Shown piece by piece: positions 17,126 to 50,417 of a stretch of DNA of 64,000 nt. The stretch is taken from assembly GCA_014874485.1 (NCBI GenBank), contig JADBJK010000024.1, forward strand, positions 248,001 through 312,000, in the 5' to 3' direction. This DNA comes from Chloroflexota bacterium. GTDB lineage: Bacteria > Chloroflexota > Anaerolineae > DTLA01. The notes under the pieces are model-generated. The model had not been told where the DNA came from. It was given only the letters and a program-made list of their open reading frames with translations, and ran no database searches. The number at the start of each line of letters is the position of its first letter. The stretch's first letter is position 1. Both the position numbers and the translations under genes were made by a program.

Positions 17126-18532
17126 ATGTCGCTGTATCTTGAGCAAAGGCTTGAGAGTCAACTGAAGATCACGCCCCAACTCATCATCGCCAACGAGGTG
17201 CTGGCGATGTCTTCGGCTGAACTGGAGCAGGCCGTCGCTCAAGAGGTGGAGCAGAACCCAGTGCTGGAACTCATTGAGCACGAACGGTGCCCCCAGTGTG
17301 GCAACCCCCTGCGCGGGTCGCATTGCCCCTACTGCGCGGGCAGAAAGCCGCCGCGAAGCAGCGACTGGGAGCCGGAGGGGTGGAACTACCAGGACTACCG
17401 CACCCACGACTGGGATGAGGAGGACGACGACCCGATCTCCCGGGTGCCGGGCAGCACGACGCTGGCCGAGTACCTGGAATGGCAGATACGCCCTGCCCTC
17501 GCTGCGGAAGACCACCCCATCGCCCTCTACCTGATAGACAGCCTGGACGACCACGGCTACCTGACCGTCTCGGCCGGCGACGCTGCCGCCCAACTGGGCG
17601 TCCCACCGAAGCGGGTGGAGCGCGTCATCGCCGAACTGCAGAAACTGGACCCGCCCGGCATCGGCGCGAGCGGCCCCCAAGAGGCGCTCCTCATCCAACT
17701 GCGGCGGCTGCGCGAGGACGGCAAACCCCGCCCGCTCGCCGAAGCCATGATCGCCCACTGGGATCTCTTCCTCAGGCAGCAGGTTCACGCCCTGGCAAAG
17801 GCGCTGAACGTAACCGAGCGGGAAATTCGGGCCGAATACGCATTCATCCGGGCCAACCTCAACGCCAAGCCGGCGCATGCCCACTGGGCGTTGGGCGAGG
17901 CCAAGCCCGCCACCGATACCGTGTACGTCCGCCCCGACATCGCCATTCGGCGGCGGCCCGCCCCCGATACGGGTTTTGAGGTGGAGGTGCTGCCCGGCCG
18001 CTCGTTCACGTTGCGCATCTCCCCCGAATACAAACGCCTGGCCGAACAACTGGAAGGCAAGGATGACCCCTCGTGCGAACAGGCGAAAGAGCAACTCAAA
18101 GAGTACATGTCCAGGGGCAAATTGTTCATCCGTTGCGTCAACCAGCGTTGGCAAACGCTGCAGATGATAGGGGATTGGCTGGTCAACTATCAAGCCGAGT
18201 TTCTGGAAAACGGGGAGCGATCCATCAAACCGATCACGCGGGCAGAACTGGCAGAACACATCGGAGTCCACGAATCCACCGTGAGCCGGGCCATCGCCAA
18301 CAAGTACGCCCTCCTGCCGAACGGGCGCGTCATCCCCCTGGCCGACTTCTTTGACGAGTCGCTGGCGGTCAAGGACGTGCTGCTGGAAATCATACGGCAG
18401 GAGAAGCGCCCCCTGAGCGATCAGGAACTGGCGAAGCGGCTGGCCCAGCGGGGCTACCCCATCGCGCGGCGCACGGTGGCCAAGTACCGGCAGGAGTTGG
18501 GCATACTCCCTGCGCGGCTCCGGTGTCCATAG
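17126..18532 (+). CDS. rpoN: RNA polymerase sigma-54 factor with an inserted zinc ribbon
   Basis: The 468-residue protein has Region I (LEQRLESQLKITPQLIIANEVLAM, ending EQNPVLEL), the core-binding domain (ASGPQEALLIQLRRL), a helix-turn-helix (LAEHIGVHESTVSRAIANKYA) and the C-terminal RpoN box ARRTVAKYRQELGI. Between Region I and the core-binding part, where an acidic linker is normal, it carries CPQCGNPLRGSHCPYC (C55, C58, C67, C70), a zinc-ribbon pattern. Sigma-54 recognises -24/-12 promoters and needs an AAA+ activator; such an activator is encoded two genes downstream. The gene starts 20 nt after the DeoR-type gene. Confidence 0.93.
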   Translation: MSLYLEQRLESQLKITPQLIIANEVLAMSSAELEQAVAQEVEQNPVLELIEHERCPQCGNPLRGSHCPYCAGRKPPRSSDWEPEGWNYQDYRTHDWDEEDDDPISRVPGSTTLAEYLEWQIRPALAAEDHPIALYLIDSLDDHGYLTVSAGDAAAQLGVPPKRVERVIAELQKLDPPGIGASGPQEALLIQLRRLREDGKPRPLAEAMIAHWDLFLRQQVHALAKALNVTEREIRAEYAFIRANLNAKPAHAHWALGEAKPATDTVYVRPDIAIRRRPAPDTGFEVEVLPGRSFTLRISPEYKRLAEQLEGKDDPSCEQAKEQLKEYMSRGKLFIRCVNQRWQTLQMIGDWLVNYQAEFLENGERSIKPITRAELAEHIGVHESTVSRAIANKYALLPNGRVIPLADFFDESLAVKDVLLEIIRQEKRPLSDQELAKRLAQRGYPIARRTVAKYRQELGILPARLRCP

Positions 18533-18557: not shown

Positions 18558-21503
18558 ATGCGCAGATTCTGGCGGTTCGCCCTCATACTCACACTGACGC
18601 TGTTGCTCGGCGGGCTGGCCTACCAGTACGCGTGGCGGCCGATGCAGTCGCGTGCTACCCCGAGCGCCCAGGAAGCCCAGCGCGCCTGGCTCCAGCAGCA
18701 CGGGCAGATTGTCATCGCTTCCCAGCCCAACAATGCCCCCTTCTACTTCCCCTCGGAAGCGGGCATCTACGGCGGGTTTGACCAGGAACTGATCGCGGGC
18801 CTGGCGCTGACGCTGAACGCCGACATCCGCCTCATCCCGATGGCAATAGAGGATGCGCGCGCCGCCCTCTCCGTCGGCGAGATTGACGGCATCATGGGCC
18901 AGGAACCGGGGCCCGAACTCGCGCCGTTCTACGCCTTCACCCAGCCCTACCTGAGCAATGCGCAGGCCATCTTCGTAACCGCCGAGCGGCTGGACGTGCA
19001 CAGCCTGTCCGATTTGGCCGGCCGCTCCGTCGCCGTCGTCGGCAACAGCCCCGGCGCCTACCTGGTGCAGTCCAACCCCGCCATCCATGCGGTGCCGGTC
19101 CCCAGCATCCAGGACGGCCTGAGCCGACTCCTGTCGGGCGAAGTGGAAGCCTTTGTAGGCGACGAACTCTCCAGCCGCAACCTGATTCAGCGTAACAACT
19201 TGAGCGGGCTGGTCAAGGCTGTAGGCGAACCCCTCCGCCGTCGCGGGTACGCCATCGCGGTGCGCAAGAACAACACCGAACTTCTTGCCCTGCTCAACTC
19301 CGGGCTTGCAGCACTGGAGAGCAACAACGTCAAGGACAAGATCGTCCGCAAGTGGTTCGGCACGATGCCCACGCGGGCAAGCGCGATTCCCGACAACTGG
19401 GCGCTGTGGGCCGGCGGGGGCGTTCTGGCCTTTTGCCTCCTGGCTGCGGCCTCGTACTCGTGGATTCGCTCCATGAGCCGCAAGATTGACGAGCGCACCC
19501 ACAAACTGCGCGAATCCGAGCAGCGCCAGCGCGTGCTGATTGAAAACGCCAACGATGCCATCTTCTCCATCCACCCGGCCGACACGGGCATTCTGGAGGT
19601 CAACCGCAAGGCCGAGCAGTTCACCGGCTATCGGCGCGAGGCGCTCCTCCACATGCGCCTCAGCGACCTCTTCCCTGCCGATTCCCGCGAGCGCAGCGTC
19701 GGCCGCCTGCAAGAGGTCTTGCTGAACGGGTCGGGCACCTTTGACGACATGGTCTTCGTCCGCCAGGACGGCACCCGCATGGACGTGGACATCAGCGCCA
19801 GCGTCATTGAGTTTGACCGCCGCAAGGTGATCCAGATTCTGGCCCGCGACATCACCGAGCGCAAGGAGATGGAGCGCGAACTCCTGCGCCGCAACCGCAA
19901 CCTGTCCGCCCTCAACGCCGTGTCCGCCGTTGTGGGCCGCTCGCTGGAACTGGACGAGATTCTGGACGCGGCGCTGGACGTGGTGCTGGACGTCGTCGGG
20001 GCCGACATGGGCGCCATCTACCTGTTTGACGACCAGACCGGCAACCTGGTCCTGCGCGTGTACCGCGGCGAACCGCCCGTCCTCGCCGTCCAGTCGCAGG
20101 CCTTCACCGAGCAAGAGGGGTGCACCACCATCACCGCATCCAACGGCAACGTGTCCCAACTGGCGGGAGCCTGGTGGCCCCAGACGGCGCAGCCGCACCT
20201 CGGCTCCTTCGTCAGCACCCAGTTGCGGGCGAAGGACAAACTCCTGGGCGTCATGAACGTCGCAAGCCGGAAGCAGCGCTGGTTCACCCAGGAAGACGCA
20301 GACCTGCTCACAGCCGTCGCGAATCAAATCAGCGTGGCCATAGAGAACGCCATGCTCTTCACCGAACTGCGCACGGCCATCGGCGACCTGTTCGTCATCA
20401 AGCAGTTCAACGAGAACGTCCTGCAGAGCATGACCAACGGGCTCATCACGGTGGACCTGTCGGGCCGCATCACCTCCACGAACATCGCCGCCGCCAAGAT
20501 CATCGGCTACCCGCGCGAGCATCTGCTGGGGAAGCCGGTGCACCAGGTGCTTGTCTCGTCCAACGGCCTGCAGCAAATCCTGTCGGAGACCCTGCACAAG
20601 GGCACGCCGTGCTCCAACTACGAGACGGTCATCACACACCGCGACGGGCACGAGATTCCCATCGGCCTGAACACCTCCCCGCTGCGCGATAACCAGGGCG
20701 TCGTAACCGGCCTCCTCCTGGTCTTTAGCGACCTCAGCGAGATCAAGAAGATAGAGGAGGAGAAGCGCAAGTTGGATCGCCTGGCCGACCTGGGCGAGAT
20801 GGCCGCCGTCCTGGCCCACGAAATCCGCAACCCCCTGGGCTCCATCAGCGCGGGCATCCAGCACCTGGCGCGCAAGATCACCGACCCCTCGCAGCAGCGC
20901 GCCATCCAACTGATTCTGGAGGAGACCGAGCGCGTCAACCGCCTGATTGAGAATGTGCTCATGATCTCGCGCCCGCCCACGCTGGACCTGGTTCCGGCGC
21001 AGGTGTCGGACATCGTGGAGAACGTCCTGGCCCGCTGGCACGGCAAGGCCGCCGAGCGGCGCGTCCGCATCACCAAAAACTACGCGCCCGGCCTCGGCTC
21101 GTGCCTGGTGGACCCCCTGCGGCTGGATCAGGCGTTGTCCAACCTCATCAGCAACGCGCTGGACGCCATGCCCAACGGCGGCGACCTGCGCATCAGCGTC
21201 CGCAAGGTGCGCCTGATTCCCGAGCCGGCCGCAGCCATAGAAGCCGCAGGCAAGGCCCATCAGGACACGGTCATCGGGCCGGAGGAGTGGATTCGCATTG
21301 AGGTCGCCGACACGGGCGTGGGCATCCCCGCCGACAAACTGCCCAAAATCTTTGAGCCGTTCGTAACGACCAAGGCGAAAGGCACCGGTCTGGGCCTGGC
21401 CATCACACGCCGCATCGTTACCGACCACCGTGGCAACATCTCGGTGCGGAGCAAGGAAGGCGTCGGAACGGTATTCACCATTGACCTGCCGTTAGCCGCA
21501 TGA
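18558..21503 (+). CDS. Hybrid sensor histidine kinase: SBP-like sensor, PAS, GAF, PAS, HisKA, HATPase
   Basis: The 981-residue protein begins with a signal anchor (about 5-25) and an extracytoplasmic domain resembling family-3 solute-binding proteins (QIVIASQPNNAPFYF... GGFDQELIAGLA, about 48-265), the type that binds amino acids. A second membrane helix (about 277-297) leads to PAS (about 325-435), GAF (about 445-600), PAS (about 615-725), a HisKA box LAHEIRNPLG with the phospho-accepting His, and HATPase with NLISNALDA, DTGVGIP and GTGLGLAI. It has no receiver domain. It lies between rpoN and the NtrC-type gene and surely phosphorylates the latter. The ligand is unknown. Confidence 0.9.
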   Translation: MRRFWRFALILTLTLLLGGLAYQYAWRPMQSRATPSAQEAQRAWLQQHGQIVIASQPNNAPFYFPSEAGIYGGFDQELIAGLALTLNADIRLIPMAIEDARAALSVGEIDGIMGQEPGPELAPFYAFTQPYLSNAQAIFVTAERLDVHSLSDLAGRSVAVVGNSPGAYLVQSNPAIHAVPVPSIQDGLSRLLSGEVEAFVGDELSSRNLIQRNNLSGLVKAVGEPLRRRGYAIAVRKNNTELLALLNSGLAALESNNVKDKIVRKWFGTMPTRASAIPDNWALWAGGGVLAFCLLAAASYSWIRSMSRKIDERTHKLRESEQRQRVLIENANDAIFSIHPADTGILEVNRKAEQFTGYRREALLHMRLSDLFPADSRERSVGRLQEVLLNGSGTFDDMVFVRQDGTRMDVDISASVIEFDRRKVIQILARDITERKEMERELLRRNRNLSALNAVSAVVGRSLELDEILDAALDVVLDVVGADMGAIYLFDDQTGNLVLRVYRGEPPVLAVQSQAFTEQEGCTTITASNGNVSQLAGAWWPQTAQPHLGSFVSTQLRAKDKLLGVMNVASRKQRWFTQEDADLLTAVANQISVAIENAMLFTELRTAIGDLFVIKQFNENVLQSMTNGLITVDLSGRITSTNIAAAKIIGYPREHLLGKPVHQVLVSSNGLQQILSETLHKGTPCSNYETVITHRDGHEIPIGLNTSPLRDNQGVVTGLLLVFSDLSEIKKIEEEKRKLDRLADLGEMAAVLAHEIRNPLGSISAGIQHLARKITDPSQQRAIQLILEETERVNRLIENVLMISRPPTLDLVPAQVSDIVENVLARWHGKAAERRVRITKNYAPGLGSCLVDPLRLDQALSNLISNALDAMPNGGDLRISVRKVRLIPEPAAAIEAAGKAHQDTVIGPEEWIRIEVADTGVGIPADKLPKIFEPFVTTKAKGTGLGLAITRRIVTDHRGNISVRSKEGVGTVFTIDLPLAA

Positions 21504-21525: not shown

Positions 21526-22917
21526 ATGGCCGCGACGGTACTGATTATTGACGACGAACAGACGCTGAACCATTTTGTCCAGGAGGACCTGCGAGAGGCC
21601 GGATACGAAAGCCTCGGCGCGCTCACAGGCCAGGAGGGCCTGGACCTCATCCGCAGCCAGGAGGTGGACCTGGTCCTTCTGGACCAGCAACTCCCCGACA
21701 TGCACGGGCTTGACGTGCTCAAGGTCATCCGCGAGGAAGAGCCCGACATCCCGGTCATCATCGTAACCGGCCACGGCGAGATAGACTGCGCCGTGCAGGC
21801 CATGAAACTGGGCGCCTACGACTACATGAAGAAGCCCTACAACCTGGACACGCTCCTGCTGGTGGCGGCCAAGGCGCTGGAGGCATCAGCCATGCGCCGG
21901 GAAATCCGCCGCCTGCGCAGGGAAGCGCGCAACCGCTACGCCCTCACGTGGATCGTGGGCGAAACCCCGCAGATGAAAGCAATCGCGCAACTGCTCATGC
22001 GCGTGGCGCCGACCAACGCCAGCGTGCTCCTGCAGGGCGAGAGCGGCACCGGCAAGGAAGTCGTCGCCAACGCCATCCACCAGCAGAGCAACCGCGCCGA
22101 GCAAGCCTTCGTTGCCCTCAACTGCGCGGCCATCCCCGACGCCCTGCTGGAAAGCGAACTCTTCGGATACGAGGCGGGGGCATTCACGGGCGCGCACAAG
22201 CAGAAGAAAGGGCTGATTGAGGCAGCGGACGGCGGAACGCTGTTCCTGGATGAGATCAGCGGCATGAAGCCGGAGATGCAGACGAAACTCCTGCGGGTTC
22301 TGGAAACGCGCACCCTGCGGCGGGTCGGCGGCACACGCGACATCAAGGTGGACATCCGCATCATCGCCGCGTCCAATCAGGACCTGGTCAAGGCCATCCG
22401 CGAGGGCACCTTCCGCGAAGACCTGTACTACCGCCTCGGCGTCGTTACGGTGAACCTGCCCCCATTGCGCGAGCGCATCGTGGACCTGCCTCTGTTCGTG
22501 GCCGCCTTCATAGACGATTTCAACCGATCCACCGGCCGCAACATCACCGGCGTCTCCGCCGAGGCACTCAGGCTCCTCAAGGCCTATTCGTGGCCGGGCA
22601 ACATCCGCGAACTGCGCAACGTCATAGAGCGGGCCATCATCCTGTGCGACGGCGAGGAAATCCGGCCCCAGCACCTGCCCGCAGAAATCGTCGCCTGTCA
22701 GCCCGGCCCGGCAGCCGCGCCCGCCGACGCAAAGGGCGACGGAACGCCGTCCAACGGCCACGGCCTCAATCTCAAAGACGCGGTGGCCCGCCTTGAGGAA
22801 GACCTGATCCGACGGGCGCTTGCCCTGGCCGACGGCAATCAGACCCGAGCCGCCAATGCGTTGGGTATCTCCCGCGACGAGTTGCGATACCGGCTGCGCA
22901 AATACCAACTGGAGTAA
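21526..22917 (+). CDS. NtrC-family sigma-54-dependent response regulator
   Basis: The 463-residue protein has a receiver domain (IIDDEQTLNHF, phospho-Asp in LVLLDQQLPDMHG), an AAA+ domain with Walker A GESGTGKE, the sigma-54 contact loop ESELFGYEAGAFTGA, Walker B GGTLFLDEI, the Arg-finger region RRVGGTRDIKVDIRIIAAS and WPGNIRELRN. A Pro/Ala linker and a Fis-type helix-turn-helix (NQTRAANALGISRDELRYRLRKY) complete it. It activates sigma-54 promoters from upstream sites when phosphorylated by the kinase encoded 22 nt upstream. The nearest -24/-12 promoter is at 23032. Confidence 0.95.
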   Translation: MAATVLIIDDEQTLNHFVQEDLREAGYESLGALTGQEGLDLIRSQEVDLVLLDQQLPDMHGLDVLKVIREEEPDIPVIIVTGHGEIDCAVQAMKLGAYDYMKKPYNLDTLLLVAAKALEASAMRREIRRLRREARNRYALTWIVGETPQMKAIAQLLMRVAPTNASVLLQGESGTGKEVVANAIHQQSNRAEQAFVALNCAAIPDALLESELFGYEAGAFTGAHKQKKGLIEAADGGTLFLDEISGMKPEMQTKLLRVLETRTLRRVGGTRDIKVDIRIIAASNQDLVKAIREGTFREDLYYRLGVVTVNLPPLRERIVDLPLFVAAFIDDFNRSTGRNITGVSAEALRLLKAYSWPGNIRELRNVIERAIILCDGEEIRPQHLPAEIVACQPGPAAAPADAKGDGTPSNGHGLNLKDAVARLEEDLIRRALALADGNQTRAANALGISRDELRYRLRKYQLE

Positions 22918-23031: not shown

Positions 23032-23047
23032 TGGCACAGAACTTGCA
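23032..23047 (+). promoter_or_regulatory. Sigma-54 (-24/-12) promoter
   Basis: TGGCAC-N5-TTGCA matches the sigma-54 consensus. The invariant GG (23033-23034) and GC (23045-23046) are 10 bp apart, as required. The transcript would start near 23058, about 84 nt before the first gene. It lies directly after the rpoN/kinase/activator genes. Confidence 0.85.
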
Positions 23048-23141: not shown

Positions 23142-23453
23142 ATGATCACAAGCCTGCAACTCGGAATGGCGATCACTCTCTTTGTCATCGGCGTCGCTGC
23201 ATGCGCCGCCGGCCTCTGGACGATTCTAGCCCGCGACTATCAGCAGACCATGCGCACGCTGTCGGCCCAATCCGCGAAAATCGGCACCCGTGCTGCCCTG
23301 GAAGACGGCATCGCGCCCATCATTGACTCGGCCGCCCGCCTCGTGGAAGCCGTAAGCCAACTGATTCGCACTGCGGTGGGCATCGGCGTCTTCCTGTGCT
23401 GCAGCGGCGTCGTCATCTGCCTTGTCGCGTTCTGGATGATCTCCAAAATCTAG
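23142..23453 (+). CDS. Small two-helix membrane protein, first gene of the sigma-54 unit
   Basis: The 103-residue protein has membrane helices at about 7-27 and 76-100, with a hydrophilic, partly helical middle (LARDYQQTMRTLSAQSAK). Both helices contain Cys (AACAAG, LCCSGVVIC). A GGGAGCGAGG precedes the ATG. I recognise no family. Its place between the -24/-12 promoter and the giant NTPase, 12 nt from the latter, suggests it anchors or senses for the downstream proteins; this is inference. Confidence 0.65.
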   Translation: MITSLQLGMAITLFVIGVAACAAGLWTILARDYQQTMRTLSAQSAKIGTRAALEDGIAPIIDSAARLVEAVSQLIRTAVGIGVFLCCSGVVICLVAFWMISKI

Positions 23454-23465
23454 AGGGGGTGAATC

Positions 23466-26400
23466 GTGGCCGTCAAACACTCCTCCAAAAGCGCCCTCGC
23501 GCAGGGCCCCGCGAGCGACTACTTGCAGAGCCTGCTGCGCGACGAGGCGCTGGCCCATGCATGGCAATCGTTTCTGCAGCCCGTGTCGGCCATCCGCGCC
23601 GCCACCCAGGGCCAGGCCGAGGACGCCGCGAGCCTCGCCGCCCTGGGGCCGCTCACACTCGTGCTCGGAGAGCCGCTGACCGGCAAGAGCACGCTCCTGG
23701 CGTACCTGGCCTACGAGACGGCCAACCGCGGCCTCCTTGCCGCTCCCGATGAGGGACCGGGCTACCCCATCCCCATCGTCGTGGACGCCGAGGCAAGCCC
23801 GGCCGACGCCTCCCTGAACGACATCGTGGCCCAGGCGCTGGAGAAGCACAGCATCAGCGCCGATGAGGCCGCCACCCGCCAGTGGCTGGACGGCGCGACG
23901 CTCCTGTTCCTGGTGGACCAGGTGGATCGCGTAGGCGGCGCGCCCGGCCCCAAGTGGGTGCGCGAGATTTGCAGCGCCGCCCAGCCCAACGGCAGGGTCA
24001 AGGCCGTCTTCGCATCCCGCACGACCGCCTGGCCGGGGCACGCCTGGGGCCTGCCCGACATCCCCACCCTCAGCCTGGGCCGCTTGTCGGACGAGGACAT
24101 CACCGCCATCCTGTCCTCCAGACTCACGAGCGAGCAGAGCCGGCGCGTCAACCGAATCCTCCGCCGCGACAGAGTCCTGTGGGACATCGTGCATCTGCCA
24201 CTGTTCCTGTCCGTCATCCTGGAACTGCTGGAGAGCCTGACGCAGGTGCCCTGGTGGAACCTGGCGCAAATCATCCTGGCGGCACTGGCGCGCATCCTGG
24301 CCGCCAAAGGCAACGCCTCGGCCAACCCAGAGCAGGCGCTCCGCGCGCTGGGTCTGGTGACCCTTGCGGAGACCATGGAGCGCCAGGCGCAGGACGCCAT
24401 CAGCGCCCACCAGGCCAATGAAATCCTCCTGCAGAGCGCGACGGGGCAGAAGACCGCCGCGCTGTCGGCCGCCACGCAGATGGGCCTCCTGGTGGGAACC
24501 CCCGACGGCAGCGTGCGGTTCCTCCACCCGGCGATGCGCCGCTACCTGTGCGCGGTGGCCCTGCGCGACCGGCTTGGGGACTCCAAGGAACTGGCCCTCG
24601 CGCGCGAGAACCCCGCGCTCTGGGAAATGTACGTCTCGGCCCACCCCGAACCGGAGCGGCCAATTCTCAACCTGCTGCGGAACGGCGACCCCTCTGTGGC
24701 GAACCTGGCGGCGAACGCCCTGCGCCAGAACCTGCTCCCCGACCGCCTGGCGAAAGCCGTGCGCAACCTGAAGGACGCCGGCATCCCCGCCGAGACGCTC
24801 CGCAACCTCGGCGCCGCGCTGATGGAGGCCGGCGAGGCGGAGTCGGGAGCGCACCTCCTGCGTGCGCTTCTGCCGCAGGAGCCGGTATCTCCCCGGGAGG
24901 CGCACGTGGCGCTCCCCGCCGCCGACCTTGACCATCCCGAGCGCCTGCTGGACGCCGCCAGGCTCACCTACTATCTGGACAAGGGCATACTCCTGCGGCT
25001 GATGGGCGAGTCCGAACGTGCCCAGGCCGAATTGCAGCGCGCCCAGGATGAAGCCTCGGCGGTCTACGCGGTCATCTGCGCCGAGCAGGGGCTGATCCAT
25101 CTGGCCGAGGGCCGCGACGAAGAGGCCCTCTCCCAGTTCCGCCTTGCCCTGGCGCGACAGCCCAATGTGCCCGAGCATCACTACTGGGCGGGCGTGGCCC
25201 TGAACCGCTTAGGCCGCCCTGGCGAGGCCATTGAGCGCCTCCAGAAGGCCAGCGCGCTCATGCCCAACAACCCGGAAATCCTGGCCGAGTTGGGACGCGC
25301 CTATCAGCACCGCGGCTGGCTGGGCGAAGCCCTGGCTGCCTACCAGCAGGCTGCCCAACTGGCCCCGCAGGACGGGCGCTATCTCCGGCTCGCCGCCCTC
25401 GTCATGGCCGAGCAGGGCCTGCGCGAAGCCGCCGTAGAGCGCATGCAGCAGGCCATCGCCCTCCGGCCCGACCGCGCCCAGTGGTACGACGAACTCGGCA
25501 CGCTCCTGGCCGACGCAGGCGACTGGCACGGCGCGCGCGCCCGTTTCCGCGAGGCCGTGGAACTGTCCGCCAGCGACGCCGAGTACCTGCGACACCTGGC
25601 TCAGGCCGAAAGCCACCTGGGCCGCCACGCCGCCGCCATTGAATTGTACCGCCGCGCCCTGGAGTCCCGCCCAGGCCAGGCGCAGTGGATCGCCGAACTC
25701 GGCGGGCTGCTGGAGAAACAGGGCGAGTACGCCCAGGCCATCAACGCTTACCGCCAGGCGTCGGTCATTGACCCCGGCGAACCCCGCTACCGCCTGGCGA
25801 CCGCCCGCCTGTTCCAGCGCCTTGGGCAGCCCGATGACGCCATGAACGAAGTGCAGGCCATCCTGCGCGAGAACCCCAACGTCGCCGAGGCGCACCGTGC
25901 CGCCGGCGCCATTCACGAGGAGAAGGGCGACCTCACCGCCGCGCTGGAAGCCTACCGCACAGCCGCCCGCCTGATCCCGACCGACGCCAACGCCCTTGTG
26001 GATGTGGCCCGCGTGGAGACTTCCCTCGGCCTGCTGGACGACGCCCAGGCGACGCTGGACAAGGCCATTGACATCAACCCGAACGCCGGCGCTGCCTACG
26101 TCCAGTTGGGCATCCTCCTGGAGAAAGGCGACCACCTCGCCCAGGCGCGCACCGTGTACGAGAAGGCGGCGCAACTCCTACCTGGGGCCACCGAGCCGCT
26201 CTTGAGGCTCGGCGCCGTTCTGCACAAACTGGGCGACACTGCCCGCGCCGCCGCCTTGCTGTCCGAAGCCGTGGCAAGCGCCCCCAGCGACCCCCGCGCT
26301 CAGTTCCAAATCGCCGAGGTCTGCGCCGACATGGGCGACCTGGAGCGCGCCCTGGGCCACTACCGCCAGGCCAGCGCCCTTGCCCCATCGGAATGGCTCT

Positions 26401-30157: not shown

Positions 30158-32668
30158 GTGAAAGGCAAGGAGATTTGCACAGCGGCTGAATTGGATTTGA
30201 AACAAGGCCGATTCCACGAGGCGCTGGACAAGGCCCAGGCGCTGCTGCGGCAGTACCCTGGGCACCTGCGCGGGATGTTCCTGGCGGCGGTTGCCTGGAT
30301 TCGCCTGGGCGAGCCGCAGCAGGCCCGCCTGATCCTGGACGCCGCCCTGGGACTGGATCCCGAGAACGCCGAATGCCGCCTGGCGCTGGCCGAGGCGCTG
30401 CACGCCCTGGGCGAGGCCGAGCAGTCCAACCGCCAGTTCGTCCGCGCCTTCGCCCTCTGCCCCGCCGACGCAGACCAGAAACTGGCGCTGGGCAGCCGAC
30501 TGCCCGCCGTGCTCAACCTGAAATCCGCGGGCGAGGCATCGCCCCTGGGCAAGGCGGTGCGGTTCAAACTGTCGGTCAACTGGGGCGGCGCGTTGCCCGA
30601 GTTCCAGGCCATCACCCGCTCGGACCCGTTCCTGCCCGAGGCGTGGCTGGGGCTTGCCGAGACGCTGTGGCGGCTGGAGCAGCTGGATGAGGCCATGTCC
30701 ACGTTGGAGCAAATCGCCGCCGCGTGGCCCAACTTCGTCAAGGCGGCGCTGATTCGGGGCGACATCCTGATCCGCCAGGGGCAGGCCGAGGCGGGCATGG
30801 CTGCGCTGCACGCCGCCCAGGCCCTGGACCCCAGCGGCATCGTTGCCGAGCGCACCTTCGGCTCCAACGGGCAGTACCGCCTGCTCTGGGCCGACCCATC
30901 GGACCTGGCCGTCGCAGAGCCTGTCGGTTCCGCACGACACGGCGCGAAGGCCCGCGATGAGTCGCCCGCCCCAGAATTCGCCGAAGCCGCCCCGCTGCCC
31001 GAAAACCCCACCCTGCGCGACATCCAGGTGGAGATGGCGCGGCTTGCCGATCACCTGATGGGCGCTGAAGAGCCACAACCAGCCGAGCGGCCGTCTGCGG
31101 TCTCGGCCCTTGCCATCCTCACCTGCCGAGGCCCGCTGGAAGCCAAGTTCGGCGCTGACTTCATCGCGCGCCTGGGCGAGGCCGTCCATCGTCTCATCCA
31201 GGCCATCGGCCCCGCCGACAACCGCGCCATCCACTTCGTGGCCCTGGACGACCCCGAGCAGATGGCGGGGCTGGGCGGCGTCGCGGCCCAAAATCCCACC
31301 GACGCCGCGCACGTCAAGGCGGCGGTGGACTCCCTGGCCGATGGCCTGCTGACCCAGGGCCAGGACATGCGCCACGTCCTCATCCTGGGCGGCGACGACA
31401 TCGTGCCCTTCTGCCGCGTCCCCAACCCCACCGAGGATCAGGATGAGGACATCTACACCGACGCGCCCTACGCGGCCCGCAACGGCTCCACGCTGCTGCC
31501 CACGCGCTCGGTCGGCCGCATCCCCGACTGCGACGACGCCGAAGCCTTCCTGCGCCTGATTGAGCACGCCGCGAACGCCCACGAGGGGTCGGCCCGCAAT
31601 TCGGCGGCCAAAGGGCTGAAGGCATTGGCCCGCATCTGGAAGCGGGGAGAGGACGCCGCGCCGCCCGATGGCAGTTTCGGCTACACCGCCAGCGTCTGGA
31701 AGGAAGCCTCGCGGGCCGTCTTTGAGGTCATCGGCCAGGCGCGCCACCTGCGCATGTCGCCGCCCATTTCCCGCCAGGAGTTCGCCGTCCTGGCGCAGAG
31801 CAAGCCCCGCCTGGCCTACTTCAACCTGCACGGCGTGGAAGGCGAACCCGCGTGGTACGGCCAGCGCGACCCCGACTTCGCCGCCGACTACCCGCTGTTC
31901 CCCGTCGCCCTGATGCCCGACGACATCGCAAGCGCGTGGGCCGCGGGCGCGACGGTCCTCACCGAGGCGTGCTACGGCGCCGACGTGCTGGGCCGCACGC
32001 ACAAGGATTCCATCGCGCTGCGCCTGCTGTACGAGGGCGCGCGTGCCGTCGTGGGTTCCACCCGCCTGGCCTACGGCTCGCTCACGCCGCCGCTGGCGGG
32101 CGCGGACCTGCTGGGGCGGCTCTTCTGGCTTGCCGTTACCAGCGGCATGCCCATCGGCCAGGCGCTCCAGTGGGCCAAACTCTCCTTCGCCAACGACCTG
32201 CTCAACCGCCAGGGCTACCTGGACAGCGAGGACCAGAAGACGCTCCTCACCTTCAACCTGTTCGGCGACCCCACGCTAACCGTGGAAGGCCAGCGGCCCG
32301 TCTGGGACAAACTCCCGCAGGCGGCGATGGTCCGCAAGTCGCTGGCCGTCTGCTGCCAACACGGCGCGCGGCAGGTTGCCACCGACGTGCCCAACGACCT
32401 GGTCCAGCAGGTGCAATTGCAAATCAGCCACCGCCTGCCCTGGATCACGCCCAAGCAGGTGCGCGTTACGCATCAGGTGCTGTGCAACGGGCAGTGCACG
32501 GGCAGTTGCCATTCAGGCGCGGCGACCCACAGCGCGGCCACCGTCGCCAACCGCTACGTGTTCACCGTCAGCGGCGAATCCGAGGGCAACGGGCTGCGCG
32601 GGCCGTTTGTCGCAAAGATCACCGTTGACCACAAGGGCACCATCCTCAAGATGGCCGTGTCCAAGTAG
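30158..32668 (+). CDS. TPR protein with a caspase-like (C25/clan CD) protease domain
   Basis: The 836-residue protein starts at GTG 30158 after GGAG. Residues 8-225 contain TPR-like repeats and resemble those of the giant NTPase. A linker follows, then a protease domain of the gingipain type: LILGGDDIVPF (408-418), YTDAPYA, LLPTRSVGRIPD (446-457), FNLHG with catalytic H558, TEACYGAD with catalytic C605, and NLFGDPTLTV (700-709). These are the landmarks of peptidase C25. A C-terminal domain of about 125 residues with several Cys follows. C25 enzymes are normally exported; this one has no signal peptide, so it is cytoplasmic. The shared TPRs suggest docking to the NTPase. Confidence 0.82.
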   Translation: MKGKEICTAAELDLKQGRFHEALDKAQALLRQYPGHLRGMFLAAVAWIRLGEPQQARLILDAALGLDPENAECRLALAEALHALGEAEQSNRQFVRAFALCPADADQKLALGSRLPAVLNLKSAGEASPLGKAVRFKLSVNWGGALPEFQAITRSDPFLPEAWLGLAETLWRLEQLDEAMSTLEQIAAAWPNFVKAALIRGDILIRQGQAEAGMAALHAAQALDPSGIVAERTFGSNGQYRLLWADPSDLAVAEPVGSARHGAKARDESPAPEFAEAAPLPENPTLRDIQVEMARLADHLMGAEEPQPAERPSAVSALAILTCRGPLEAKFGADFIARLGEAVHRLIQAIGPADNRAIHFVALDDPEQMAGLGGVAAQNPTDAAHVKAAVDSLADGLLTQGQDMRHVLILGGDDIVPFCRVPNPTEDQDEDIYTDAPYAARNGSTLLPTRSVGRIPDCDDAEAFLRLIEHAANAHEGSARNSAAKGLKALARIWKRGEDAAPPDGSFGYTASVWKEASRAVFEVIGQARHLRMSPPISRQEFAVLAQSKPRLAYFNLHGVEGEPAWYGQRDPDFAADYPLFPVALMPDDIASAWAAGATVLTEACYGADVLGRTHKDSIALRLLYEGARAVVGSTRLAYGSLTPPLAGADLLGRLFWLAVTSGMPIGQALQWAKLSFANDLLNRQGYLDSEDQKTLLTFNLFGDPTLTVEGQRPVWDKLPQAAMVRKSLAVCCQHGARQVATDVPNDLVQQVQLQISHRLPWITPKQVRVTHQVLCNGQCTGSCHSGAATHSAATVANRYVFTVSGESEGNGLRGPFVAKITVDHKGTILKMAVSK

Positions 32669-32680
32669 CAGGAGGAACCC

Positions 32681-34072
32681 GTGGACATCAAAGCATACTG
32701 GCGACCCAAAGGGGATACTGGCATCGGCTTCCATTACTATCCGAACGTGTTCCACTACAGCAAGGCCGACCTGGACTTCTGGCTGCCCGAGTTGAAGGCG
32801 ATGGGCGCATCCTGGCTTGTGCTGCTCTCGGAGGTGGACAACCCCATCCCGTCGTTCTTCATCAAGGCCCTGGTGCAAGCGGACATTGAGCCGCTGATCC
32901 GCGTGTACACGCCGACGGTCCGCCCCATTGACCAGAAGGCCCTGCGCTCGCTGCTGGAGACCTATCGGGCGCTCGGCGTCCACTATGCGCATGTGTACAA
33001 CGAGCCGAATCTCACCAACGAATGGGACTGGGCCGAGTGGTCCAAGCCCGCCCTGGTGGATCGGTTCATGGACATGCTCATCCCGTGCCTGGAGACCATG
33101 AAGGCCGTCGGCCTGTATCCAGTCTTCACGCCCCTGAGTCCAGGCGGCAACTACTGGGACACCGTCTTTCTGAAGACGGCCCTGGACTACATCGTGCTCA
33201 AGGGCAAGGAAGACCTCTTTGACACGATGGCCGTGGGCATGCACAACTACGTGTCCAACAAGCCGCTGGACTGGGGCAAGGGCGGCCCCGCGCGCTGGCC
33301 GAATGCCCGCCCTTACTACTGCCCCGAAGGCAGCCAGGACCACGTGGGGTTCTACCTGTTTGAGTGGTACGACGCCATCATCCGCGAGCGCATCGGGCGG
33401 TCGTTGCCCCTCGTCTGCTACGAGAACGGCCCCATCGTCGGCGCGCACGACCACCCCAAGTACCCAGCGGTGGACGAAGCCGCCCACGCCCGCATCGCCG
33501 TTGACATGACCAAGATGCTCATGGACAACGTCGTGCCCGACTATGTGTTCAACAACGCCTTCTGGCTCCTCGCCAACAGCCACGGCAGCCCCTTTGAGGC
33601 CCACGCGTGGTACAAGGAGAACGGTTCGCGGCTCCGTGCCGTGCAGGCGATGAAAGACCTGCCCAAGCACCCGCGCCAGAGCGCGCAGCCGCAACCCACT
33701 CCCGACCGCGGCACCGCCCCGCAGGAGCACCCCCTCTACCACTACGTGCTCTGCCCCGTGTGGGAATGGGGCGTCTCCGAGTGGTACTGGCGGATGCTGT
33801 CCAATTACGTCAAGGCGTTCAAGCCAGCGTGTGGCTTCAGTGTGGAAGAAGCCGCCCTCGCCCGCTACGTTACCATCATCGGCAAGGCCCCTGGCGTCCC
33901 GTCCAGTGCCGAGGCTGCGCTCCGCGCTGCCGGGTGCAAGGTGGAGCGCATCGCCGGCGCGGACGCCGCCGAGACGCAGAAAATCCTGGACCAGATGGCG
34001 AGCCAGGGCCGCCGCTTCCTCAACTTTGAGGCAAGCGAGTCCTCCTCACCGCACGCGGGAGGAACACCATGA
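32681..34072 (+). CDS. Glycosidase-like TIM-barrel protein with a cell-wall-binding-2-like tail
   Basis: The 463-residue protein starts at GTG 32681 after AGGAGGA. Its barrel carries HVYNEPNL (E108, acid/base position of clan A glycosidases) and VCYENGP (E248, nucleophile position), so the catalytic pair looks complete. The tail YVTIIGKAPGVPSSAEAAL plus KVERIAGADAAET resembles one unit of the cell-wall-binding 2 repeat. There is no signal peptide. It is a paralogue of the N-terminal part of the protein at 39569, whose start MDIxxYxRPxGDTGIGFH is nearly the same. It overlaps the next gene by 4 bases. Substrate unknown; wall glycan is plausible from context. Confidence 0.6.
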   Translation: MDIKAYWRPKGDTGIGFHYYPNVFHYSKADLDFWLPELKAMGASWLVLLSEVDNPIPSFFIKALVQADIEPLIRVYTPTVRPIDQKALRSLLETYRALGVHYAHVYNEPNLTNEWDWAEWSKPALVDRFMDMLIPCLETMKAVGLYPVFTPLSPGGNYWDTVFLKTALDYIVLKGKEDLFDTMAVGMHNYVSNKPLDWGKGGPARWPNARPYYCPEGSQDHVGFYLFEWYDAIIRERIGRSLPLVCYENGPIVGAHDHPKYPAVDEAAHARIAVDMTKMLMDNVVPDYVFNNAFWLLANSHGSPFEAHAWYKENGSRLRAVQAMKDLPKHPRQSAQPQPTPDRGTAPQEHPLYHYVLCPVWEWGVSEWYWRMLSNYVKAFKPACGFSVEEAALARYVTIIGKAPGVPSSAEAALRAAGCKVERIAGADAAETQKILDQMASQGRRFLNFEASESSSPHAGGTP

Positions 34073-36603
34073 AACGCATCGCATTGCGCGTGGCCTGTGT
34101 GTTGGGAATCCTCGCCCTGGTGCTGTCCACCGCCGGGTGCGCGGTGAACACCCTGCAGGACGCCCAGCCCCAGGCCCAGAGCGCGGCAACCTGGACACAG
34201 TCCACCGTCGCCGACTTCAAGCGGGGCACCTTGCAGCGCGTGCAGATTGAGCGCCAGGGCGACGGCGAACTGACCCTCGCCCGCAACGCCCAGGGCCAGT
34301 ATGAGGCCGCGGGCGTGTACACCTCGCCCGTATTCGCGCCGAGTGGCGTCTTCTCCATGGCCGTCTGGCGCTGGGAAGCCGAGATTCCCGTCGGCACCGG
34401 CCTGACGCTCTCGGTTCGCACCAGCGACGACGGCAAGACGTGGGGCGAATGGCAGGAATTGGCCCCCGACGAAGACCTGAAGTCCGCAACCGACGACTGG
34501 CCGGGCCACATGTGGTACACCCAGGGCGCGCGATTCATCCAGTACCGGCTGCAGTTCGCGTCCGCCGACGGCCAGGCCACGCCCGTCGTTTCGGCCGTAA
34601 CCTGGACGTTCGCCAACACGCAGCCCGGCCCCACCGTGCAGGAAGCCATGCAGATGGTCATCCCCCAGGGCGAAGGCCCCGGCGTGCAGCGCCCGGCCAT
34701 CATCCCACGTCGCGGCTGGGGTGCTGACGAGAGCCTGATGACCTGGGAACCCAAGTACGAGAAGCCCGTGAAGATCATCATCCACCACACGGCGACACCC
34801 AACGACCCCAAGCAGGACCCCGCCGCCACCGTCCGCGCCGTCTACTACTACCACGCGGTAACCCGCGGCTGGGGCGACATCGGCTACAATTACCTGATTG
34901 ACCGCCTCGGCAACATCTACGAGGGGCGCAAGGGCGGCGAAGGCGTCGTTGGCGGCCACGACTACGGGTTCAACGAAGGCTCCGTCGGCATCTCGCTCAT
35001 CGGCGATTTCCAGTCCGAGCCGCCCACCGACGCGATGATGGACGCCCTAGCCCGCCTGGTGGCCTGGGTCTGCGACCGCTACGGCATTGACCCCACCGGC
35101 CGCAGCATCTTCCGCGACCTGGACTTGCCCAACATCGCCGGCCACCGCGAGACCAAGTCCACCACGTGCCCCGGCGACCAGGTGCAGAACCGACTGCCCG
35201 CCCTGCGCGAGCGGGTCGCCGAGATCATCCACCGGCAGGCTCCGTCGGTGCGCTTTGTCGCCCCCACAGCCGACCGCCCGCTGTCCGGCGCACAGACGAT
35301 CCAGGTGCAAGGCGGCGTGGCGACCTCCGACATCACGCTGTACCTGGACGGCAAGCCGGTCCACCGCAAGATCGGCACGGCGCTGGAGTACAAGTGGGAC
35401 ACGACCGCAGTCGCAGACGGCGACCACCTGCTCAAGGCCGTGGCGCACAACGCCCGCGGCGAAGAGGCCGTCCAGTCCCTGATGGTGCTCGTGGACAATA
35501 CCCCGCCCCAGGTTACGCTCCTCATCAATAACGGCGCTCGCTATGCGACCCAGCAGACCATCACGCTGACCGTTGAGGCGCTGGACGTGGGCAGCGGCGT
35601 GGACGCGATGCAGATGAGTCCGGGCGAGGACCCCACCGGCGCGCCAAGCCAACCGTATACCCACGAATTGACCCTGGAACTGGGCGAACAGCCCGGCCCA
35701 CGCACGTATTCGGTCCGGGTGATGGACAAGGCGGGCCTGGCGTCCGGCGTGTCGGTGGCGCAGGTCTTCTACGACCCCAACCCGCCTGGCGGGTGGACGG
35801 ACGCGGCGCTGTCCAGCACCGGCGAGGTGGCCGTACGCGTGCGCGACGACGAGAGCGGGCTGGAACCCGCCAGCGCCTTCGCGGCCTGGTCCGCGGACGG
35901 CGGCGTTACGTGGAGCGTCTGGCAGGATGCCATCGTTACGCCCGACGGGGCTGAGGCCACCCTCTACGCGCGCATCCCCGCCGAGGCGACGCTGGTGCGC
36001 TTCCGCATCTCCGACGTCGCCGGCAACCTGGCCGAAAGCCCGGTGTACCCCCTGCCCTGCGAGGCGTGCCCACCGAAGCCCACGCCCGAACCACAGCCGG
36101 AGCCCACACCCGAGCCGGCCCCGACCGCGCCGGACGTGATCGTCGCGGGGATGGACATCTTCCCGCCGCAGCCCGACGCAGGCGAACCTGTCCTGTTCCG
36201 CGTGCGCGTGCGTAACCAGGGCGACGGCCCGGCACCCGGCTTCTGGGTACAACTGTACATAGACCCGAAGACAGTACCTTATGTCAACTCCATCGCCAGC
36301 CTGCTGGGCACGGGCATCCTGTGGTACGTCCCCGACCTGGCCCCCGGCGAGGAAGTTACCCTGCTCTCTTCAAATCCGTACCCGGAATATGGCAACTTCG
36401 CGGGCAGTCTGGCAAGCGGTATGCACAGCATCTATGTGCTGGCCGACGCCTACCACACCGAAGGCCAGACGGGGCTGGTGACCGAATCGGACGAGCAGAA
36501 CAACCTGTTCGGCCCGGTGCAGTTGGAGGTGAAAGGCTCCAAGCCGTTCAACTGGTCTAGCCTGGAAGAGTGGCTGAGTCGCTGGCTCAACTGGAAACCT
36601 TAG
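34069..36603 (+). CDS. Lipoprotein N-acetylmuramoyl-L-alanine amidase (PGRP fold) with CARDB domain
   Basis: The 844-residue protein has a lipoprotein signal peptide (lipobox STAGC, C24). A beta-rich N-terminal domain is followed by the amidase_2/PGRP domain (about 205-390): RRGWGADESL, IIIHHTAT, GWGDIGYNYLIDRLGNIYEGR, AGHRETKSTTCPGD. The zinc ligands His, His and Cys are all present. Two Ig-like modules follow, then a Pro-rich linker and a CARDB domain (about 690-825, FRVRVRNQGDGPAPGFWVQ). It removes stem peptides from peptidoglycan at the cell surface. The ATGA overlap with the preceding gene ties it to the sigma-54 unit. Confidence 0.85.
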   Translation: MKRIALRVACVLGILALVLSTAGCAVNTLQDAQPQAQSAATWTQSTVADFKRGTLQRVQIERQGDGELTLARNAQGQYEAAGVYTSPVFAPSGVFSMAVWRWEAEIPVGTGLTLSVRTSDDGKTWGEWQELAPDEDLKSATDDWPGHMWYTQGARFIQYRLQFASADGQATPVVSAVTWTFANTQPGPTVQEAMQMVIPQGEGPGVQRPAIIPRRGWGADESLMTWEPKYEKPVKIIIHHTATPNDPKQDPAATVRAVYYYHAVTRGWGDIGYNYLIDRLGNIYEGRKGGEGVVGGHDYGFNEGSVGISLIGDFQSEPPTDAMMDALARLVAWVCDRYGIDPTGRSIFRDLDLPNIAGHRETKSTTCPGDQVQNRLPALRERVAEIIHRQAPSVRFVAPTADRPLSGAQTIQVQGGVATSDITLYLDGKPVHRKIGTALEYKWDTTAVADGDHLLKAVAHNARGEEAVQSLMVLVDNTPPQVTLLINNGARYATQQTITLTVEALDVGSGVDAMQMSPGEDPTGAPSQPYTHELTLELGEQPGPRTYSVRVMDKAGLASGVSVAQVFYDPNPPGGWTDAALSSTGEVAVRVRDDESGLEPASAFAAWSADGGVTWSVWQDAIVTPDGAEATLYARIPAEATLVRFRISDVAGNLAESPVYPLPCEACPPKPTPEPQPEPTPEPAPTAPDVIVAGMDIFPPQPDAGEPVLFRVRVRNQGDGPAPGFWVQLYIDPKTVPYVNSIASLLGTGILWYVPDLAPGEEVTLLSSNPYPEYGNFAGSLASGMHSIYVLADAYHTEGQTGLVTESDEQNNLFGPVQLEVKGSKPFNWSSLEEWLSRWLNWKP

Positions 36604-37845: not shown

Positions 37846-37875
37846 TTGACAGGGTAGCAAAATAGCAGGTATGAT
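37846..37875 (+). promoter_or_regulatory. Sigma-70 promoter of the LysM/pseudo-glycosidase gene
   Basis: TTGACA (37846-37851) begins right after the ftsZ stop; TATGAT (37870-37875) follows after 18 bp. Start near 37882. Confidence 0.75.
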
Positions 37876-39568: not shown

Positions 39569-41134
39569 ATGGACATCGCGTCGTACCCGCGACCGGCGGG
39601 CGATACGGGAATCGGGTTCCACTGGTTCCCCGATGCGCAGCACTACGACCGGGCCTGGCTCAAGCGGTTCGGCCCCGTGCTGAAGGCGCTGGGAGCCAGT
39701 TGGCTCACCGTGATGAGCGGCATCAGCGACCCTGTCCCCGAGCACTTCCTTGAAGGGCTCCGAGACCGGGCCATTGAGCCTGTCGTGCACCTCTGGACGC
39801 CGTTCATCGCTTCGGTGCCCGAAGCCGACATCAGCAAAACCGCGCGCTACTTGGCCCAGGCAGGCGTCCGCTACGTGTTCATCTACGACCGGCCCAACCA
39901 GATGGGACAGTGGGCCAAGTGGCCCGGCGACAGCGCCGCCGACACGTTCATGGACATCGCACTCCCCGCGCTGGAGATTCTCGCGCGGGAGGAGGCGCTT
40001 GTGCCGCTGTTCTCGCCGCTGGAGCCTGGCGGCGATTACCACGACCTGCGGTTCCTGGACCGCTGCCTGGAGATTCTTGCAGCCAAGGCCAGCCCGAACC
40101 TGAAGGACAAACTCGGCGTCGCCATCCACAACTTCACCGGCAACGCCCCGCTCACGTGGGGCCACGGCGGGAGCCAGGCATGGCCGGCGACGCGCCCAGG
40201 CCGCTGTCCAGAGGGGAGCGAAGACCACCGCGGCTACCGCCTGCACGAGTGGTACCAGGAGATCGCGCTGCGGCGGCTCGGTCGCGCGGCGCTGATGCTG
40301 GCTTCGGCCAATGGCCCCCGCGTCGGCGACCGCACCCATGCGGCCTATCCGCCGATGGATGCGGCCCGCCACGCGGCGCATGCAGCCGAAATGGCGCGCG
40401 GCATCATGGCGGGCGACGCGCCCTCGTACCTGGCCAACACCGCATTCTGGCTCCTCGCAGCGGAAGATGGCGATCCGTTCGCGGCGCACCGATGGTACAA
40501 ACCCGACGGCACGCCCGTCCTGCGCGAGACCATCCGGGCGCTCACCGACCTGCCCAAGCGGGCCCGGACCGTGCTGCAAGTGCCCGCCACCGTGTCGGTG
40601 CTTCTGGAAGACGGGAGCACCGTAACGATGGAACTTGAGGATTATGTCAAGGGCTGTGTGCCGCGGGAAATCCCCGCCAGCAGTCCCATGGAGGCGCTGA
40701 AGGCGCAGGCCATCGCCGCCCGCACCTTCGCCGCCCGCGCCGTCCGGCAGCCGCGCCACGGCTCCGCCGCCGTCTGCACCACATCCCACTGCCAGAACTG
40801 GTCGGCCAAGCACAGCGGCCGCTCGGACAAAGCGGTGGACGAGACGCGCGGCGTCGTCCTGGCCTTCCGCGACGAACTCATCGGCGCGTACTACTTCGCC
40901 CATTGCGACGGCCACACCCGCAACAGCGAAGACGTATGGCGCGCCGCTCTCCCCTACTGCAGGAGCGTCCCCTGCATCTGCGGCAACGTCAAGATGTACG
41001 GCCACGGTGTGGGCATGTGCCAGGAGGGAGCCATTCGCATGGCCCAACAAGGCGCTCTGGCCCACGAAATACTGACCCACTATTACACAGGCGTGCGCGT
41101 TCAGCGGGCAGACGGCACCCCGTTCACGGAGTAG
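39569..41134 (+). CDS. Degenerate glycosidase-like barrel fused to a SpoIID domain
   Basis: Residues 1-345 are a paralogue of the barrel protein at 32681, but the acid/base motif YNEPN has become YDRPN (R108) and the nucleophile motif YENGP has become SANGP (A247). Residues from about 355 form a SpoIID/LytB domain: VSVLLEDGSTVTMELEDYVK, GCVPREIPASSPMEALKAQA, IAARTFA and GHGVGMCQEGAIRMAQQG. In Bacillus, SpoIID is a lytic transglycosylase that acts on stem-peptide-free glycan made by an amidase. The SpoIID Glu (PREIP) is present. No signal peptide is seen, which is odd for a wall enzyme. Confidence 0.78.
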   Translation: MDIASYPRPAGDTGIGFHWFPDAQHYDRAWLKRFGPVLKALGASWLTVMSGISDPVPEHFLEGLRDRAIEPVVHLWTPFIASVPEADISKTARYLAQAGVRYVFIYDRPNQMGQWAKWPGDSAADTFMDIALPALEILAREEALVPLFSPLEPGGDYHDLRFLDRCLEILAAKASPNLKDKLGVAIHNFTGNAPLTWGHGGSQAWPATRPGRCPEGSEDHRGYRLHEWYQEIALRRLGRAALMLASANGPRVGDRTHAAYPPMDAARHAAHAAEMARGIMAGDAPSYLANTAFWLLAAEDGDPFAAHRWYKPDGTPVLRETIRALTDLPKRARTVLQVPATVSVLLEDGSTVTMELEDYVKGCVPREIPASSPMEALKAQAIAARTFAARAVRQPRHGSAAVCTTSHCQNWSAKHSGRSDKAVDETRGVVLAFRDELIGAYYFAHCDGHTRNSEDVWRAALPYCRSVPCICGNVKMYGHGVGMCQEGAIRMAQQGALAHEILTHYYTGVRVQRADGTPFTE

Positions 41135-50300: not shown

Positions 50301-50417
50301 CCTACCGCCACGCCCACGCCAACGGCAACACCGTCGCCGGGGCCTACACCCACGGCAACGCCGCGTAACACACCGAGCGCGAGGCTATGGCTGCCATGCA
50401 TCGCGCGCGGCAACTGA
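44391..50417 (+). CDS. Giant secreted mosaic protein: cohesin, SdrD-like, LVIVD, glycosidase, CBM, dockerin, DNRLRE
   Basis: The 2008-residue protein has a signal peptide ([15 protein letters not shown]) and modules joined by Thr-Pro linkers. In order: cohesin-like (about 57-200); SdrD-like beta domain (254-337); LVIVD propeller repeats (424-707); TIM-barrel glycosidase (761-1070) with intact IGNEPD and ISEYGV Glu motifs; carbohydrate-binding-like domain (1094-1224); type I dockerin with two DxNxDxxVDxxD-like calcium loops (1357-1424); second cohesin (1434-1573); DNRLRE domain (1598-1783); SdrD-like domain (1860-1950); tail [10 protein letters not shown]. An internal IYLPFVMR follows the first SdrD-like domain. 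It is likely a surface glycan-degrading or adhesive protein. Confidence 0.8.
49761..49940. repeat. Perfect 90-bp in-frame tandem duplication
   Basis: Two identical 90-bp units (49761-49850, 49851-49940) encode the same 30-residue Thr-Pro linker block ([20 protein letters not shown] and so on). The length keeps the frame. Confidence 0.9.

Follow-up and report, generated by a model that had tools for sequence, protein, structure and literature searches.

The window, by which we mean the whole 64,000-nucleotide stretch of Chloroflexota DNA that was analysed, encodes a C25 caspase-like protease belonging to a conserved Chloroflexota module, as is well supported by sequence comparisons, and the carriers of this module are a group of soil and water bacteria. 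Judging from gene content in different lineages, the core of the module is a small membrane protein, a giant TPR protein and the C25 protease, and a second FtsZ (FtsZ2) was acquired within Anaerolineae. The explanation that we favour, with a probability of roughly 40%, is that the module is a sigma-54-induced, membrane-tethered protease switch, which acts on FtsZ2 or is scaffolded by it, with the remodelling of the cell envelope. The basis of this explanation is what was observed in the sequences: the parts of the module, their order and co-occurrence, the sigma-54 sites, the fold, the conservation of the catalytic dyad and the sharing of a domain. No description of this gene cluster was found in the open-access papers searched. 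The features of the locus are listed in Table 1.

Table 1. Features of the module and of its surroundings in the window.
Feature	Position	Strand	Basis and remarks
rpoN, sigma-54 factor	17126..18532	+	Pfam Sigma54 AID/CBD/DBD
Sensor histidine kinase (SBP_bac_3-GAF-PAS-HisKA-HATPase)	18558..21503	+	Pfam; many related loci also have a kinase gene upstream
Sigma-54-activator response regulator (NtrC type)	21526..22917	+	Pfam Sigma54_activat, 242 bits
Sigma-54 promoter TGGCACAGAACTTGC, operon start	23032..23046	+	Predicted; sole perfect match in the window
Small protein of 103 aa with two hydrophobic helices; conserved opening gene of the module	23142..23453	+	Alignment, hydropathy, co-occurrence
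Giant NACHT-TPR protein, 2209 aa	23466..30095	+	NLR-like NTPase and long TPR array; Pfam, AF2, Foldseek
Walker A motif GEPLTGKS of the NACHT domain	23667..23690	+	Alignment, motif scan; residue 68
TPR - C25 caspase-like protease - C-terminal domain	30158..32668	+	836 aa, without export signal; ORF, Pfam, alignment, AF2, Foldseek
TPR superhelix of the protease (residues 2-234)	30161..30859	+	AF2 model; missing in 10/29 orthologs
C25 protease domain (residues 315-710)	31100..32287	+	AF2; Foldseek gingipain K
Catalytic His558 codon	31829..31831	+	Ortholog alignment
Catalytic Cys605 codon	31970..31972	+	Ortholog alignment
C-terminal domain of the protease (~residues 745-836)	32390..32665	+	Homologous to a free ~75-aa protein beside FtsZ2 elsewhere
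Glycoside-hydrolase-like protein, conserved neighbour	32681..34072	+	NEPN and ENG motifs by eye; homologs elsewhere
Exported N-acetylmuramoyl-L-alanine amidase (Amidase_2)	34069..36603	+	Pfam; N-terminal hydrophobic segment
FtsZ2, second FtsZ of the genome	36570..37844	+	TIGR00065; tree
Sigma-70-like site just 3' of FtsZ2	37846..37875	+	Consensus scan 11/12; predicted from sequence

A C25 Protease without an Export Signal

The open reading frame of the protease starts with GTG and has the GC pattern of a coding sequence. Pfam recognised in its product TPRs and Peptidase_C25 (PF01364; 37.2 bits versus the gathering cut-off of 23, with the best stretch at residues 599-708), and the Peptidase_C25 profile matched 20 of 29 protease orthologs with E<=0.01, each E-value of the profile comparisons in this work being that of a single comparison. 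In the AF2 model (mean pLDDT 79, 29 sequences in the alignment), the TPR helices are followed by a low-confidence linker, the protease domain and an alpha/beta domain at about residues 745-835. The top Foldseek match of this model was gingipain K (4rbm, E 3.9e-9; 6i9a, E 1.5e-8); TPR proteins ranked after it, and the TPR-CHAT protein Csx29 (8eey, 7y9x) was among the best. As phmmer found no match of the protease domain in the PDB, a sequence search alone would have missed the relation to gingipains. The original prediction, which placed in this reading frame a C25 caspase-like protease with H558 in FNLHG and C605 in TEACYGAD, was thus borne out by the Pfam score and the fold, and the dyad was kept in 28 of the 29 orthologs.

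Known gingipains are exported. The window protease was proposed to lack an export signal and to begin with TPRs, and this proved right: no ATG, GTG or TTG precedes position 30158 in the open frame, the hydropathy profile revealed no hydrophobic N-terminus, and the orthologs also start straight with TPRs. A secreted gingipain with a missed upstream start is ruled out by the same first start codon, the TPRs from residue 2 and the non-hydrophobic N-terminus. The proposal would have fallen, by its own account, had there been no protease fold at residues 310-710, where the AF2 model places the domain that matches gingipain K. The protein resembles gingipains in fold, His-Cys dyad and Pfam score, with gingipain K as the best match of solved structure, but differs from them in the lack of secretion features and in carrying TPRs and a new C-terminal domain.

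Three more C25 genes of the same genome code for proteases of the secreted gingipain type and have far higher Pfam scores (up to 319 bits). They are unrelated to the operon (L001-L003, at G000:C103:29138-30223, C95:43597-44733 and C71:2420-3526), and at least two of them have apparent N-terminal export segments. In family f5, additional stretches distantly similar to C25, whose matched frame is interrupted by stop codons, lie away from the operon (G006:C1:66590-67465, G099:C18:412421-416868, G172:C71 and C93).

The Giant Neighbour Has an NLR-like N-terminus

The giant protein encoded next to the protease gene consists of an N-terminal part with Walker A and conserved Asp and Arg residues, as found by alignment and motif scan, and of a TPR array of about 45 repeats, as reckoned by length (Pfam finds TPRs there). 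The Pfam NACHT profile scored below its cut-off in the window protein (21.6 bits) and above it in two orthologs (52.6 in L021 and 45 in L024), and several orthologs possess the winged-helix hallmark FxHPxxQEYxAA. NLRC4, NLRP3, NOD2 and related NLRs made up nearly all of the best 50 Foldseek matches of the AF2 model of residues 1-500 (pLDDT 84). The protein has what characterises the NLR/NACHT-STAND class, namely a NACHT domain with Walker A/B and C-terminal superstructure repeats. The likeness to NLR/caspase assemblies suggested in the original prediction, with this neighbour as the NTPase, therefore has a structural basis. The match to the NLRs extends over Walker A, the NACHT-winged-helix hallmark, the fold and the C-terminal repeat array, but here the TPR array is very long, the protease effector is a separate polypeptide, the nucleotide-binding domain has been lost in some lineages, and FtsZ2 and wall enzymes are encoded in the operon.

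TPR-TPR docking, by which the two proteins were proposed to bring proteases together, did not hold as a general mechanism. Protease TPRs are absent in 10 of the 29 orthologs, in five families (f25, f26, f37, f50 and f54), which rules out docking as a conserved principle of the module, and the NTPase domain of the giant protein has been lost in several families. In f53, f55 and f59, the gene pair with the protease persists without this domain, and the remaining N-terminus of the giant protein aligns to residues 207-463 of the NACHT protein (hhalign 97.2%, E 4.7e-11), ruling out the NTPase as an essential part of the module there. No Walker A was seen in the f25 giant protein, in which the domain is apparently also lost, and in one locus (L081) the giant gene itself was absent in the stretch read. 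In lineages that retain the NACHT domain, the protease could plausibly be activated by an NLR-type assembly.

When found in bacteria, NLR-type switches and caspase-fold proteases are commonly interpreted as serving defence or cell death. The module could thus be an anti-phage or abortive-infection system, in which the caspase-like protease kills or arrests the cell once the NACHT-TPR giant has detected an invader or damage and activated it. The NLRC4/NLRP3/NOD2-like fold and the presence of a caspase-fold protease in the same operon would fit this, as would the known role of bacterial NACHT proteins as anti-phage sensors (PMC12169576) and the occurrence of caspase-bearing NTPase conflict systems in multicellular Chloroflexi (PMC7159879). 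However, the rest of the module persists where the nucleotide-binding domain has been lost, the module occurs in a single copy per genome with a fixed gene order over many families, it is under two-component/sigma-54 control, and its neighbours are not those of a defence island but rpoN, a kinase, envelope enzymes and FtsZ2. PADLOC did not match the protease or the small protein, and gave one weak mad8 match (16.8 bits) to the NACHT N-terminus. We consider a defence function unlikely. The NTP-dependent conflict systems of Kaur et al. 2020 (PMC7159879) share with the module NTPases, caspase-superfamily proteases, TPRs, occasional FtsZ superfamily members and their occurrence in Chloroflexi, but C25 or gingipain proteases are not mentioned in that paper, and no vWA, MoxR or VMAP, the components of the vWA-MoxR-VMAP type, was found among the window neighbours run through Pfam.

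Operon Layout and Sigma-54 Control

The genes between 23142 and 37844 are spaced mostly by -34 to +12 nt, with two overlapping pairs and one gap of 62 nt as the maximum. As the sigma-70-like site directly follows FtsZ2, the operon probably ends with this gene; a terminator scan gave fewer matches in the real sequence than in shuffles. The small protein had no match in Pfam, NCBIfam or PADLOC. Its gene accompanies that of the protease: in the Anaerolineae sample of 60, it was present in 30 of 32 protease-bearing genomes versus 1 of 28 others. A distant homolog (L153, G007:C169:6177-6473, E 2e-11) is encoded in a genome without the protease, with no module genes found nearby. The glycoside-hydrolase-like (GH-like) protein had no Pfam or NCBIfam match, and its homologs adjoin the protease or FtsZ2 in many families; amidase homologs occur in the f5, f40, f44 and f78 loci.

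A sigma-54 activator adjoins the module in the f1, f5, f25, f37, f44, f53 and f55 loci. A sigma-54 site with 0 or 1 mismatch precedes the small-protein gene in f1, f37 (1/2 loci), f53 (5/6 loci) and f55, in each case with the activator adjoining. None was found in the loci scored as lacking the activator, and several activator-bearing loci (f5, f25) had no clear site. The small-protein gene is directly preceded in f5, f40 and f44 by a gene for a short receiver-like protein of 133-146 aa, similar to the N-terminus of the sigma-54 activator (L023:1899-2297, L024:1318-1740, L063:1064-1495, L067:19173-19595, L069:1364-1801).

The adjoining transcription genes (rpoN and the NtrC-type regulator) are also what would be expected if the protease were a Craspase-like regulatory enzyme that cuts an anti-sigma factor or another regulator once its partner is triggered, with FtsZ2 as a member of the regulon. 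Csx29, which is among the structural matches of the protease, cleaves Csx30, a sigma-factor inhibitor (PMC10028731). In Craspase (gRAMP/Cas7-11 with Csx29), as here, TPRs are fused to a cytoplasmic caspase-fold protease (PMC10028731). However, the protease domain of Csx29 is CHAT and not C25, and Csx29 belongs to a CRISPR effector with an RNA-guided partner and without NACHT, FtsZ or a small membrane protein. No cas gene was present among the annotated window neighbours and no anti-sigma factor among the conserved neighbours seen, and the protease lacks TPRs in five families. Taken together, these differences make a regulatory protease of this kind quite unlikely.

Distribution and Core of the Module

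Of 396 genomes of the class, 42 had protease orthologs, and so did 18 genomes from other classes of the phylum, among 400 drawn; many of the genomes are metagenome assemblies with contig breaks. The window genome is of the Anaerolineae type, and a near-identical relative, Anaerolineae bacterium A05DMB-I-30, was the sole match in a contig search. In the about 50 neighbourhoods that we read, the core genes are arranged as histidine kinase, sigma-54 activator, two-helix protein of about 103 aa, giant TPR protein and protease, followed in many families by the GH-like protein, the exported amidase and the second FtsZ. Outside Anaerolineae, the module lacks a linked FtsZ and most such genomes have a single FtsZ, suggesting that FtsZ2 is an added partner and not part of the core. 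A phylum-wide module containing FtsZ2 is thereby ruled out.

The catalytic dyad is dead in two families, and these have also lost the partners of the protease. In the G027 protease, both His and Cys are lost (FSLRG, SQAGFGG), and the genome has neither FtsZ2 nor the small protein. In f96, Cys is lost in 4 of 4 sequences and His also in one of them, and neither the giant nor the small-protein gene was nearby in the stretches read.

A Second FtsZ Accompanies the Protease in Anaerolineae

The window genome encodes two FtsZ proteins, the canonical one elsewhere. FtsZ2 scored 404 bits with the TIGR00065 equivalog (cut-off 295), has intact GGGTGTG and C-terminal peptide, and is separate in the tree from the canonical FtsZ clade of the class (UFBoot 100). 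Among 60 genomes of the class, in which FtsZ2 was identified by the tree or by having the protease gene or the free C-terminal-domain gene (described below) as a neighbour, it was present in 30 of 32 protease-bearing Anaerolineae genomes and in 0 of 28 without the protease, although these genomes are related and not phylogenetically independent. Ten of the 28 were placed in the FtsZ tree and the remainder have a single FtsZ. Counted by family, the numbers are 12 of 14 protease-bearing versus 0 of 26 others, with family f3 being mixed (one protease-bearing genome, the other genomes without the protease). The two protease bearers that lack FtsZ2 are G027, with its dead dyad, and G322, with an intact protease. 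Extra FtsZ copies in G036 and G037 were ruled out as FtsZ2 by the tree.

The distribution of FtsZ2 bears on another reading, according to which the protease would act as a scaffold or in maturation, with cytoplasmic cleavage as a secondary matter, and FtsZ2 co-occurs with it as a result of the shared ancestry of related families. The model for such a role is PorU, a C25-type sortase of type IX secretion. The loss of catalytic residues in some orthologs (G027, f96) and the secreted gingipain type of the other three C25 genes of the genome are in line with it, but the dyad is retained in 45 of 50 orthologs of a larger aligned set, the dead ones lack partners, and the 12 FtsZ2 families are scattered among the 26 without. 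We therefore regard this reading as highly improbable.

Only in f37 does FtsZ2 lack GGGTGTG or a close form of it, and only in f37 and f50 does it lack the C-terminal FtsZ peptide. The second T7-loop aspartate, which is present in 28 of 28 canonical FtsZ copies, has been lost from FtsZ2 in 7 of 12 families (f5, f24, f40, f44, f53, f55 and f59; the T7 loops of f37 are too divergent for scoring). The FtsZ2 of the window has both T7-loop aspartates. As the equivalent D212A substitution leaves E. coli FtsZ with 7% of GTPase activity (PMC8142252), we infer that FtsZ2 filaments would turn over slowly in the families without this aspartate. Two FtsZ types also co-exist in plant chloroplasts (FtsZ1/FtsZ2), but the FtsZ2 described here belongs with a protease/NACHT operon, and its second T7-loop aspartate is often missing.

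The C-terminal Domain of the Protease Has a Free Homolog

In many families, a free protein of about 75 aa is encoded just 3' of FtsZ2, and the C-terminal domain of the protease is homologous to it (hhalign 98.8%, E 6.6e-17); the profile of the free protein matched protease C-termini with E down to 5e-7. In f53, FtsZ2 lies far from the protease, yet beside the GH-like gene and the free C-terminal-domain gene. The free protein was not found in the window's own genus or in the 28 genomes without the protease. The domain common to the protease and the FtsZ2-adjacent protein is the best clue to a physical link, though no more than a clue. A split version of the window protein occurs in f71, where the gene of a shorter C25 protein is followed directly by a separate gene for the C-terminal domain (L172:9344-9643 and L173:9357-9785).

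A Possible FtsZ2-Linked Protease Switch

This domain, the membrane protein, FtsZ2 and the sigma-54 promoter, all of them absent, with the remaining operon, from the original prediction, are what most constrains the function of the module. In the switch that we favour, the histidine kinase and the sigma-54 activator would turn the operon on in a particular state. The giant TPR protein and the small protein would then form an assembly at the membrane and, if NACHT is kept, nucleotide-driven NLR-type oligomerisation would cluster and activate the protease. A scaffold could be provided by FtsZ2 filaments, of which many are predicted to be slow in turnover, and the C-terminal domain, common with the free FtsZ2-adjacent protein, could take the protease to the same site. 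There, the protease would cut a substrate related to division or to the envelope, either FtsZ2 or a partner, and the co-expressed wall enzymes would remodel the envelope. Everything after the induction of the operon, including the substrate and the biological event, is what we infer.

The switch is supported by the gene order kept over many families, by the way in which FtsZ2 and the small protein track the protease, and by the persistence of FtsZ2 beside the free C-terminal-domain gene even when it is unlinked from the protease, as in f53. In further support of that, four activator-adjoining families have sigma-54 sites, the T7-loop aspartate is often lost, the giant protein has the NLR fold, the operon is tightly spaced, and the dead-dyad orthologs lack partners. 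Against it stand the module without linked FtsZ2 outside Anaerolineae, the loss of NACHT in f53, f55, f59 and apparently f25, the intact protease without FtsZ2 in G322, and the lack of the free C-terminal-domain protein in the window's genus. A more specific version, a 'divisome-linked inflammasome', in which the small membrane protein would tether an NLR-fold scaffold and a caspase-fold protease and the shared C-terminal domain would recruit them to the filaments of a dedicated FtsZ, where they would execute sigma-54-programmed, proteolysis-driven division or differentiation in Chloroflexota, is possible but rather doubtful.

Under sigma-54 control and accompanied by a membrane protein, the NLR/caspase-like pair has long been kept across Chloroflexota with an unchanging gene order, and FtsZ2 is almost obligatory in Anaerolineae. 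If the link to FtsZ2 is functional, NLR/caspase-like machinery would be used for cell division or envelope development, and the module offers a concrete test of the role of a second FtsZ in a little-studied phylum.

Other Genes of the Window

A second GH-like protein, with NEPN/ENG-like motifs and a C-terminal SpoIID domain, is encoded at 39569-41134, with homologs that again adjoin the protease or FtsZ2. LVIVD repeats and CBM96 are present in two very large proteins encoded at 44391-50417 and 50387-55009, which are candidate surface proteins; the first of them additionally contains cohesin, dockerin and SdrD B-like domains.
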